64,000 nt of DNA from Rubrivirga sp. SAORIC476 (GTDB lineage Bacteria > Bacteroidota > Rhodothermia > Rhodothermales > Rubricoccaceae). The first letter of the stretch is position 1, and the number at the start of each line of letters is the position of its first letter. A program made the translations under genes and the position numbers. The stretch lies in the NCBI RefSeq assembly GCF_002283555.1, contig NZ_MVOI01000002.1, positions 248,001-312,000 on the forward strand, in the 5' to 3' direction. Below are positions 53,141-56,943 of this stretch, piece by piece. The notes under the pieces were generated by a model. The model was not told the DNA's origin. It ran no database searches and saw nothing but the letters and a program-made list of their open reading frames with translations.

Positions 53141-53407
53141 TTAGCGACGGAGACCGAGCTCCGCGATGATGGCGCGGTAGCGGTCGATGTGGTTGTCGCT
53201 GAGGTAGCGGAGCAGGCGGCGCCGCTTGCCGACCATCTTGAGCAGGCCCAGGCGGGACGTGTGGTCCTTCTTGTGGGTCTTGAGGTGCTCGGTCAGCTCG
53301 TTGATGCGAGCCGTGAAGATGGCGATCTGGACTTCCGGCTTGCCGGTGTCCTGGCCGCTCTCTCCGTGCTGCTCGATGATGGTCTGCTTCTTGTCCTTGG
53401 TGATCAT
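53141..53407 (-). CDS. rpsO: 30S ribosomal protein S15
   Basis: From ATG 53407 it is 88 residues, the normal size. Sequence blocks [48 protein letters not shown] and a final [12 protein letters not shown] are diagnostic. S15 binds 16S rRNA early in assembly and in many bacteria represses its own mRNA. The leader here contains two hairpins (53408-53497), compatible with autoregulation. Confidence 0.97.
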
Positions 53408-53549: not shown

Positions 53550-54716
53550 CTACGCCCGCACGAACACCATCCGGAAGCCGACTGCGGTGGTGGCCGCCGT
53601 GCCTCCGAAGAGAGGGGCCGTCATGTACCCCGAGAGGGGCTGGTACACGATCCTGGCGTTGCCGTTGAAGTTGACCGTCCCGCGCGTCGTCACCGGACCG
53701 GTGAGCACGGTGCTGCCACTCAGCTGGATGTTCTGGTTGTTCATCAGCGACCCCGTGATCTGGGCGGACCCGTTGATGCTGATGTCGCGCTCGGAGTACA
53801 GCGACAGCGTGCTCCCCGCGGCCGTCTGCAGCGACCCGTTGACGTTGATGTTTCCCGACGCGATGATGTTGACGAACCCCTTGACCTCGACCGACTTCCC
53901 ACCGTTGATGTTGAGGTCCCCGCGGATGACCCAGACGGCCGGGTTCTCGGCCGTGCTGGTCGCCGAGAAGTCGATCACGCCACCGGACGGCTGCACGTTG
54001 GTCGCAGAGACCAGGGTCGCCTTCGACAGATAGTCCGCCACCCGGATCACGGGGATCTCGATGCGCTCGACCGTCTGGTAGACCGCCAGTCCTGAGGGGT
54101 TGGCGTTCGGCCGGAAGGCCCGCGCCAGGCGGTCCTTCTGCCACTGCTGCGTGGGCGGCGTCACGGACTGGTAGAAGCCCTGGATGCCCGCGTTCTCGGT
54201 GATGTTGACGTAGCTACCGCCGTTGGTGTGGATGTTCGCGTTGAGCGCGGGGTCTGCCGAGAGCACGCGCTGCGACGTGTTCATGGTCAGGCTCTGCTCC
54301 AGCGTGAGCGCCTGCCCCAGGAACCGGGCAACGGGAGGCGCGCCGGACGTGCTCGCCCTCAACTCGAACGTCGCCTCACGCGTGTGGCGGACCGTGCCCT
54401 CCCGCCCGACGCCCGTGACCTCCCCCACCGAGGTGACGGTCAGCAAACGGGGCGGCGTCGGAACGATCTGGACGGTGTACGTCCCCCCGTCCAACTCCCC
54501 GCGGAGGGTGCTGGTGGCAGGAAGACCCGTCAGGGTCGACACCAGCTCGGTGGCCTCTTCGAGGCCAGTCTCGGAGAGGCGCTCCGCGACGACGATGCCG
54601 AGGTGGTTCTGCGCGAGCGCATTGCCTCCGGCGCGGGCGTCGAGCCCGCGGTTGGCCAGGACCGAGCCAGTGGTCAGGCTGGACGCCGCGACGAGGAGAA
54701 GAAGGAACCGTCCCAT
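53550..54716 (-). CDS. Pilin-associated-like (PilX-like) envelope protein with a beta-solenoid C-terminus
   Basis: From ATG 54716 it is 388 residues. A hydrophobic N-terminus (GRFLLLLVAASSLTTGSVLA) leads into a helix (LGIVVAERLSETGLEEATELVSTL), as in PilX-type minor pilins, but there is no prepilin-peptidase motif (G-F-T-x-x-E). The C-terminal ~150 residues are repeated short strands (VIRGDLNINGG, VNIIASGNINVNG, DISINGSAQITGS), a bactofilin/polymer-forming-like beta-solenoid. It starts 2 bp after the preceding gene ends. Last of three. Confidence 0.62.
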   Translation of the reverse strand: MGRFLLLLVAASSLTTGSVLANRGLDARAGGNALAQNHLGIVVAERLSETGLEEATELVSTLTGLPATSTLRGELDGGTYTVQIVPTPPRLLTVTSVGEVTGVGREGTVRHTREATFELRASTSGAPPVARFLGQALTLEQSLTMNTSQRVLSADPALNANIHTNGGSYVNITENAGIQGFYQSVTPPTQQWQKDRLARAFRPNANPSGLAVYQTVERIEIPVIRVADYLSKATLVSATNVQPSGGVIDFSATSTAENPAVWVIRGDLNINGGKSVEVKGFVNIIASGNINVNGSLQTAAGSTLSLYSERDISINGSAQITGSLMNNQNIQLSGSTVLTGPVTTRGTVNFNGNARIVYQPLSGYMTAPLFGGTAATTAVGFRMVFVRA

Positions 54717-54718
54717 GA

Positions 54719-55312
54719 TCAGGCGGAGGTCCGGAGGACCTGGTTGACGAGCCGGTAGTACCGGTCGAGAGAAATGGGAAGCCGGCGAGGGTCGGTGGCC
54801 GTGGTGTTCGGGCGAAGCTCGGGGGCAGGGAGAACGATGCGAATCGAGACCCCGGTCGCGTCGGCGACCGGTCCTGTCGGCGTGAGCGAGACCTGGACCG
54901 TATCCACCTCCATGTCGACTCCGGACACGGCATAGCCGCTCCCGGTCCAGGTCTGTCTCTGGAGGCGCCAGCAGGTGCTCGCGTCGGAGGTGGTGCAGGC
55001 CGTTCGTGTGGCGAGGTAGCGGATGCGGTCCACCGTGCCCGCCTCGTGGACTGCCCCCCGGAACTCGAACGTGCGGGTGGTGCCGGTCCACGACCAGCCC
55101 AGGATCGCGGCCTCGGACGGGTCGACGTCGGCGCCGAGGCGGGCCATGTCGCGATCGAGGGTCTCGCGGACCACCTCGATGCGCGCCCGGTCGCGGTACG
55201 TGTTGGTGGTCGCCACCGCGGAGACCTGATTGCGGTACCAGATGGCCGCGAGGATGAGGATCACGACGCCAGCCATCAGGATGGACGTCAGATGATCGAG
55301 CCAGACACTCAT
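54719..55312 (-). CDS. PilW-like membrane-anchored envelope protein
   Basis: From ATG 55312 it is 197 residues. One N-terminal membrane helix (LTSILMAGVVILILAAIWYRNQVSAV, about 8-33) is followed by a helix and a beta domain (RIEVVRETLDRDMARLGADV; VDMEVDTVQVSLTPTG). Two cysteines at ATRTACTTSDASTC suggest a disulfide. The topology fits a minor pilin of the PilW kind without the class III signal. It lies 2 bp from both neighbours. Confidence 0.6.
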   Translation of the reverse strand: MSVWLDHLTSILMAGVVILILAAIWYRNQVSAVATTNTYRDRARIEVVRETLDRDMARLGADVDPSEAAILGWSWTGTTRTFEFRGAVHEAGTVDRIRYLATRTACTTSDASTCWRLQRQTWTGSGYAVSGVDMEVDTVQVSLTPTGPVADATGVSIRIVLPAPELRPNTTATDPRRLPISLDRYYRLVNQVLRTSA

Positions 55313-55314
55313 GA

Positions 55315-55794
55315 CTACTGGCCCTCCGCGGTGTAGACGCTCGTGAGCGTCGCGGCGAAGGAGTCCGGACCGGTGGTGGTCAGTGTTAACCGTTTGAAGT
55401 AAGTCCGCCGCGGCACCTCCCGCCACGTCCCGCCGCTCTTCTCGACGTAGGCGACCTCCGCCGCCAGCGTGTAGTCCAGACCTCCCCCGGACGCTCCCTG
55501 CAGGCGACGCGTCACCGTCGCCCCATCGAGATCGTCGAGGTCGGTGGCCGCGTCCCACGAGGCGGCCCCTCCGAACTGAGTCGGACCGGTGAGGTCGTTG
55601 GCGGAGGCGGGCTGCGCGACCGCGTCGAACGGGAGCGCGGCAATCTGCTCGAACGTGCTCTGGATCAGGTCGCCGCCCAGCGACTCGATCTCCTCGGCCA
55701 TGAGGTCCTGTCCGACCTCGATGTCCGCGCGGTGGGTGTTGAAGTTGAGGAGGGAGGCGAGCGCGAGGGCTGCGAGAGCGAGGATGCGTTCCAT
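55315..55794 (-). CDS. PilV-like small envelope protein, first of the pilin-like operon
   Basis: From ATG 55794 it is 159 residues. It starts with a short hydrophobic helix (ERILALAALALASLLNFNTHRADIEVGQDLMAEEIESLGG) that runs into an amphipathic helix, as in type IV pilin N-termini, then a globular domain. The usual G-F/M-T-L-x-E processing site is absent. Upstream (55795-56013) is 219 bp with no gene; it holds a GGCCA-AA-TGGCC repeat at 55859-55870 but no convincing -7 element. Confidence 0.58.
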   Translation of the reverse strand: MERILALAALALASLLNFNTHRADIEVGQDLMAEEIESLGGDLIQSTFEQIAALPFDAVAQPASANDLTGPTQFGGAASWDAATDLDDLDGATVTRRLQGASGGGLDYTLAAEVAYVEKSGGTWREVPRRTYFKRLTLTTTGPDSFAATLTSVYTAEGQ

Positions 55795-56013: not shown

Positions 56014-56943
56014 TTACTGCTCCAGCACGGCCACGGCAGCCGCCCGATCTCGGCCCAACTGTGCGACCAGCGCGTCCACCCCGCCGAAGCGCTGTTCCTC
56101 CCGGAGGCGCGCGACCAGGTCCACGGTCAGCGTCTGGCCGTAGAGGTCGCGGTCGACCTCGAACAGGTGGGCTTCAAGAGTCCGCGTGCCGTCGGTCTCG
56201 AAGGTGGGGCGGCGACCGACGTTCATCATGCCGCCCCCCTCGGTGCCGTCTGCGAGCCTCGCGCGGATGGCGTAGACCCCGAGCGCTGGGACGAGCTTCC
56301 GGGCGTCCACTGGGCGCAGGTTGGCCGTCGGGTAGCCGATGGTGCGGCCCCGTGCATCCCCGCGGACGACGGTGCCGGAGATCCGGTAGGGGCGGCCGAG
56401 CAGGTGGCTCGCCCGCTCGGCGTCTCCCTCGTCGGCCAGCAGACGGCGGATCTCAGTGGACGACACCGTCACGTCGTCCTCGATCTGCTCCGGGATCACG
56501 TCCACAGAGAAACCCAGGCGGGCGCCGAGGCGCTCCAGCAGGGCGCGGTCGCCCCGCGCCTTCCGCCCGAACCGATGGTCGTACCCGATCACGATCTCCC
56601 GCATGCCGACCGTCCCCAGCAGCACGTCGGCGACGTAGTCCTCGGGCTCCAGCAGCGACAGGTCGCGCGAGAACGGCAGCACGACGAACCGTTCCACACC
56701 GAGCGCCTCCAGCGCGTCGGCTCGCTCGTCGAGCGACGTCAGGAGCGGGATGGCGTGGCCGGTCAGGATCTCGCGCGGGTGCGGGTCGAACGTCACCACC
56801 GTCGGCACGCCGCCCGTCTCGGCCGCCCGCGCCACGAGGTAGCGGATGATGGCCTGGTGCCCCAGGTGGACCCCGTCGAACGTGCCGGTCGTGACCACCG
56901 AGCGAGGGTCTGCACGAACCGAGGCACCGTGTTCGCGCGTCAT
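56014..56943 (-). CDS. ribF: Bifunctional riboflavin kinase / FMN adenylyltransferase
   Basis: From ATG 56943 it is 309 residues. The N-terminal FAD synthetase domain has GTFDGVHLGHQAII (20-33), VVTFDPHPREIL and IGYDHRFGRKARGD. The C-terminal kinase domain has GRTIGYPTANL, GVYAIRARL and the MNVGRRPTFETDGTRTLEAHLF block. The ATG overlaps truB by 4 bp; last gene of rimP-nusA-infB-rbfA-truB-ribF. Confidence 0.96.
   Translation of the reverse strand: MTREHGASVRADPRSVVTTGTFDGVHLGHQAIIRYLVARAAETGGVPTVVTFDPHPREILTGHAIPLLTSLDERADALEALGVERFVVLPFSRDLSLLEPEDYVADVLLGTVGMREIVIGYDHRFGRKARGDRALLERLGARLGFSVDVIPEQIEDDVTVSSTEIRRLLADEGDAERASHLLGRPYRISGTVVRGDARGRTIGYPTANLRPVDARKLVPALGVYAIRARLADGTEGGGMMNVGRRPTFETDGTRTLEAHLFEVDRDLYGQTLTVDLVARLREEQRFGGVDALVAQLGRDRAAAVAVLEQ

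Follow-up and report, generated by a model that had tools for sequence, protein, structure and literature searches.

The closest described relatives of the locus reported here are the type II secretion system (T2SS), in which GspI, GspJ and GspK form a tip complex that starts filament assembly and which has no PilT/PilU retraction ATPase, and the type IVa pilus (PilA, PilB, PilC, PilT, PilMNO and PilQ, with FimU-PilVWXE). Pilins are described as having to lose their leader to a prepilin peptidase before they can assemble (PMC10191384), and in a survey Nanoarchaeota was the one listed phylum where prepilins were not accompanied by the peptidase (PMC4471445); both accounts make the peptidase a core component. 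The Cytophaga T2SS has a prepilin peptidase (PMC5553014). The locus of MSH pili contains no peptidase gene, and genomes with MSH pili always encode one in another system (PMC6668835). The mitochondrial T2SS has no GspO homologue, and its GspG keeps a leader, polar anchor and Glu5, with peptides that suggest processing (PMC8134430). In Melioribacter roseus, pilT, pilQ, pilB and pilC were reported and pilA and pilD were not found, which the authors took as an incomplete set (PMC3534657). Our search of the open-access literature (subscription journals and preprints lay outside it) returned no description of leaderless pilins, so we make no claim to priority.

We analysed a window of 64,000 nucleotides from Rubrivirga sp. 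SAORIC476 (contig NZ_MVOI01000002.1, positions 248,001 to 312,000 of the forward strand) that contains three minus-strand genes, here called A, B and C, separated by gaps of 2 bp each (Table 1). Reading from genes and models, we consider it likely, with good confidence, that this triplet encodes the parts of an alternative tip complex, serving a filament that resembles the type IVa pilus and is independent of prepilin peptidase. The genes have a third-position GC content of 0.88-0.92, and each product has one N-terminal hydrophobic segment starting within residues 1-8 and no second strong one. The tight packing and the missing processing site reported in a first-pass annotation of this DNA both held: on inspection of the sequences, none of the three proteins has the prepilin cleavage site G-F/M-T-L-x-E, and all three start directly with the hydrophobic segment in place of a class III signal peptide.

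Table 1. Features of the window and related features elsewhere in the genome (G000). Positions without a contig label are those of the window.
Feature	Location	Strand	Length	Description
Gene A	55315-55794	-	159 aa	Leaderless putative minor pilin in PilV/GspI position; N-terminus MERILALAALALASLLNFNTHRADIEVG
Gene B	54719-55312	-	197 aa	Leaderless putative minor pilin with predicted GspJ/PilW fold; helix 2-57, then beta domain (AlphaFold2)
Gene C	53550-54716	-	388 aa	Leaderless GspK/PilX-like putative minor pilin; C-terminal repeat domain ~264-374
rpsO	53141-53407	-	88 aa	S15; downstream flank of insertion; found in 37/40 relatives
ribF	56014-56943	-		Upstream flank of insertion; truB-ribF-rpsO-pnp order in relatives
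A-B-C triplet	C3 ~338-341 kb			Further copy
A-B-C triplet	C3 374.7-377.6 kb (G000:C3 374718-377635; L076:6719-9636)			Copy in the machine cluster
A-B-C triplets	C3 1,120.8-1,128.6 kb			Tandem pair
pilB	G000:C3:377891-379072			Extension ATPase of the machine cluster
PF00437 match	G000:C7:98110-98673 (L313)			Third match in the genome

The triplet interrupts the truB-ribF-rpsO-pnp block, which is otherwise conserved in relatives. The annotation was right that ribF and rpsO are usually neighbours, ribF being directly upstream of rpsO or at most 1.5 kb away in 26 of the 29 relatives that have rpsO. Conservation of the triplet at this site, which it had named as a check, was rejected: none of the 29 relatives whose rpsO locus was read carries A, B or C between the two genes, so the insertion is private to this genome. 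The gap looks like a place where insertions are tolerated within a housekeeping block that is fixed in other respects, and the window copy would be a detached minor-pilin set that landed there. Since no close orthologue of the window triplet was found and window B is a long branch that stays unplaced in the B tree, the sequences suggest that this copy could be decaying or newly specialized. In other relatives, the ribF-rpsO gap contains different, unrelated secreted or repeat-rich proteins (L310:1546-3345, L311:5052-6461, L312:4315-4740).

Outside this site the three families are widespread. Single-protein searches of 60 relatives found homologues of A, B and C alike, and in the sampled loci the three genes are adjacent and in the same order almost without exception, in many genomes of the order. 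This recurrence of homologous triplets in one order makes the grouping in the window more than chance. At least five A-B-C triplets lie on contigs C2 and C3 of this genome, the window copy among them (Table 1), and loci in three other genomes (G043, G005 and G189) have two or three between pilB and pilT or beside pilB, with three inside the machine cluster of G043.

No Pfam or NCBIfam family matches A, B or C above cutoff, and profile searches gave nothing significant against PDB sequences (the best match of the major pilin-like protein P, described below, was the type IV pilin PilE1, E 1.1). Comparison of the A and B families with single E. coli GspI and GspJ sequences (hhalign) was likewise insignificant. 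We place A in the PilV/GspI slot by position, from gene order, size and the motif of its 52 aligned members (MxQTLLA..N..R ... FG...DDxDDFxG...VxYVD...KEVT). The C-family HMM matches a leader-bearing GspK/PilX-like protein in one relative (G028) over HMM positions 4-345 (E 2e-37), and also matches leader-bearing relatives at peptidase-bearing loci in G004, G119 and G077; judged by these profile matches, the homology between C and the leader-bearing GspK/PilX-like proteins at conventional loci spans almost the whole of C. The C-terminal repeat domain of window C is compatible with a predicted beta-solenoid, as indicated by weak, sub-cutoff Pfam matches to Bactofilin (E 0.008) and DUF7305 (E 0.0065); within the C family, DUF7305 occurs in 6 of 28 members (best E 3.4e-9) and Bactofilin, weakly, in 7. 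Apparently complete C proteins range from about 340 to 790 aa, and Pfam scans found no adhesin domain in the larger ones. The tails of C differ strongly from set to set, the C protein of this genome's machine-cluster triplet having an acidic, Asp/Pro-rich one.

That triplet belongs to a cluster of three P genes, pilC, pilB, A, B, C, pilT, a gene in pilM/N position, a gene in pilO position and a secretin gene. The order P-(P)-pilC-pilB-A-B-C-pilT-pilM/N-pilO-secretin is common to this genome and its relatives; it is shared by complete and draft genomes from several families of the order and from other orders of the class, and recurs with some gaps in other families of our phylum sample and in contigs of Ignavibacteriales, Melioribacteraceae and candidate division KSB1. 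Of the 36 PilC loci sampled for this machine, 35 have P adjoining pilC, those from the latter three groups included. PilT scores above the NCBIfam PilT/PilU cutoff (TIGR01420, 329.2 bits against 319.1), and PilB, PilC and the secretin are good matches to type IV pilus/T2SS models, below the NCBIfam equivalog cutoffs. By Pfam, the cluster encodes a PilB-type extension ATPase (PF00437, 322 bits), a PilC/GspF platform protein (PF00482 in two stretches, E 8e-28) and an outer-membrane secretin (PF00263, 104 bits). The pilM/N and pilO genes are in the right place without a convincing family match and are named by position. The likeness to the type IVa pilus thus extends to assembly and retraction ATPases, platform protein, secretin and clustered minor pilins; the differences are that neither major nor minor pilins have a class III leader here, that there is no PilD, and that many detached triplets occur in one genome. 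The Melioribacteraceae contig (L244) carries P-P-pilC. For Melioribacter roseus, we propose that the missing pilA is the leaderless MGQQQ protein and that the missing pilD is unneeded.

Predicted structures of B and P have the long alpha-1 helix and beta-sheet head of pilins. Foldseek against the PDB returned nothing significant for either protein; the matches below come from a second look with VIA-align. The AlphaFold2 model of window B has a pLDDT of 82, and minor pilins or pseudopilins occupy all five top places: 2ret_H (EpsJ, Z 10.4, 132 residues at 3.2 A), 9a1f_S (XcpW in an XcpGHIJK filament model, Z 10.3, 161 residues, model residues 1-194 on chain residues 1-199), 3cfi_B (EpsJ, Z 9.9), 6utu_E (XcpW, Z 9.4) and 5g23_B (TTHA1219, Z 8.7), the next entry falling to Z 5.3. 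We read these chains as EpsJ and XcpW on the basis of the titles of the entries and what they are known to contain. On this model, the predicted fold of window B is of the GspJ/PilW type. The model of this genome's own P (pLDDT 93) consists of a helix at residues 2-55 and four strands, and every one of its 11 best entries is a type IV pilin or pseudopilin, with PilE (4noa, Z 9.3), PilV (5v23, Z 8.9) and full-length PAK pilin (1oqw, Z 8.0) in the lead; residue 4 of P aligns with residue 1 of the mature pilins.

The absence of any curated family above cutoff and the long branch of window B are what one might expect if the window triplet were degenerate, or a set of unrelated single-pass membrane proteins with an accidental resemblance to pilins. 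We regard this as very improbable, given that the genes are open, GC3-biased and tightly spaced, that family membership and gene order are conserved, and that the predicted B has a GspJ fold with a clear gap to the next match. The proposal in the first-pass annotation that these are PilV/PilW/PilX-like minor pilins is thus supported, by predicted fold for B, by homology for C and by slot for A. For the families, we found neither of the outcomes it had named as fatal to this reading, namely a lack of pilin-like folds or absence from all relatives.

The major pilin-like proteins themselves are leaderless. Those of this genome start MGQQQLLLLVLG directly at the initiator methionine. Taking all loci together, we obtained 176 distinct P proteins; 170 begin with MGQQQ, and in 168 there is no in-frame start between the preceding stop and the methionine at the MGQQQ position, so that a leader has no place in the reading frame there. 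The Glu5 of mature non-cap subunits is missing as well: an acidic residue at positions 3-12 occurs in only 2 of the 176, and window A and B have none in their N-terminal hydrophobic stretch. Pfam scans of P gave no curated match; matches to MacB_PCD in 10 members were dismissed as membrane-helix similarity. At conventional loci in the same class, the major pseudopilins read GFSLTELMVVLVIVGILALLAIP and GFTLPELLIVLVIIGILVMIAIP and sit beside a peptidase gene.

One feature of these starts could indicate a peptidase that was replaced rather than lost. Nearly all P proteins have Gly2, and the aligned C proteins have it without exception; it could be the relic Gly(-1) of a two-residue leader. An enzyme that is no relative of Peptidase_A24 might then cut a minimal Met-Gly leader behind Gly2. 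The last residue of a canonical leader is Gly or Ala (PMC10191384), and for the mitochondrial T2SS, which lacks GspO, a different peptidase has been suggested (PMC8134430). The likeness to that system ends at the missing peptidase homologue, as mitochondrial GspG keeps the leader features that P lacks. Replacement is quite unlikely in our judgement: Gly2 is unconserved in A and B, the leader would comprise two residues without a basic one (basic residues at positions 1-8 occur in only 2 of 176 P proteins), and we recognised no further peptidase gene within the conserved cluster.

We searched for the peptidase with one Pfam family, Peptidase_A24 (PF01478), which detects divergent members in the same class and was positive in 12 of 14 control genomes, archaea included. 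This genome (97.5% complete) has no PF01478 match and no N_methyl motif. In the class (244 genomes), a homologue of this PilC is present in 163, PF01478 in 19 and N_methyl in 28; 147 of the 163 are without the peptidase and 139 are without both. Peptidase and N_methyl co-occur (16 of 19 genomes, Fisher p = 6e-15), whereas peptidase and this PilC show no association (p = 0.13), both tests being descriptive and ignoring phylogeny. Since the peptidase tracks N_methyl and not this PilC, it is part of another, conventional system that is present in some genomes and absent from others. Such sporadic T2SS-like loci, with leader-bearing pseudopilins and Peptidase_A24, were found in L157 (G004:C11) and L158 (G077:C1), for example, and about one in ten PilC-bearing genomes of the class has them together with the leaderless system. 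In a sample of 395 genomes from the phylum, 129 have P and 51 have PF01478; 114 of the 129 have no PF01478 match, and 15 genomes have both leaderless pilins and the peptidase. A peptidase gene is missing from the locus here as it is for MSH pili, and, unlike genomes with MSH pili, most of these have no PF01478 match elsewhere. The idea that the triplet serves a structure that does not use prepilin peptidase, already raised in the first-pass annotation, gains support from the presence of ATPases, platform protein and secretin in a genome where peptidase and N_methyl prepilins went undetected. The machine cluster, the leaderless major pilins and the spread across taxa go beyond what that annotation had before it.

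What the machine does bears on a further reading, in which it is a T2SS-like pseudopilus secretion system and the triplets are substrate-selecting tips; this overlaps with the pilus reading and differs from it in function only. T2SS pseudopilins are the nearest counterparts of B and of the I-J-K order, and the P profile resembles E. coli GspG (hhalign E 5.5e-4, at a probability of only 30%). The triplet is like GspI-GspJ-GspK (EpsI/EpsJ, XcpV/W/X) in gene order, sizes, N-terminal helix plus beta domain and predicted B fold, and differs in having no leader, Glu5 or prepilin peptidase and a sequence similarity undetectable by Pfam. A T2SS-like set is needed for cellulose utilisation in Cytophaga (PMC5553014). 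We nevertheless find a secretion system rather unlikely, as the cluster includes a PilT/PilU retraction ATPase above the curated cutoff, its secretin is nearer to PilQ than to GspD, and conventional T2SS-like loci, in which a peptidase accompanies leader-bearing pseudopilins, occur separately in the class. PilT points to a pilus that can retract and away from a system for secretion alone.

For a type IVa-pilus-like filament, the parts could work as follows. The subunits would be made without a class III leader and, lacking it, would not be cut by prepilin peptidase; each would enter the inner membrane as a single-pass N-in/C-out anchor from its initiator methionine, which methionine aminopeptidase may remove where residue 2 is Gly, Pro, Ala or Ser. 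The triplet proteins would be the equivalents of GspI-J-K or PilV-W-X and, by analogy with GspIJK and from the modelled fold of B, may form a tip complex that primes the filament. PilC and PilB, both present as genes, would add leaderless major pilins (MGQQQ...), PilT would retract the filament, and the PilQ-like secretin would provide the outer-membrane gate. With several triplets in one genome (at least five here) and a very variable C, which may be the exposed part, the tips would be interchangeable. More broadly, the machines of Rhodothermota/Balneolota, Ignavibacteria and KSB1 probably make up a branch of type IV filaments whose subunits are leaderless, unprocessed and presumably non-methylated, so that the peptidase would not be a universal core component of the superfamily and the triplets would multiply as interchangeable tips.

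If so, leader cleavage, a step of pilus assembly taught as essential, may be dispensable. A widely conserved machine free of leader and peptidase would open the question of why cleavage and Glu5 exist to direct tests, in which natural leaderless pilins are set against processed ones. It would also explain genomes like that of Melioribacter roseus, with an apparent pilus machine and neither pilA nor pilD, and would allow many proteins now called hypothetical to be annotated from their MGQQQ signature.

Two observations concern further ATPase genes. The third PF00437 match in this genome was set aside because it sits among conjugation-type genes, a group found on a smaller contig that may be a plasmid or an integrated element. 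Some of the distant genomes in the phylum sample have a second PilB-like gene immediately beyond the leaderless pilus cluster (L269:7207-9042, L278:9782-11593).
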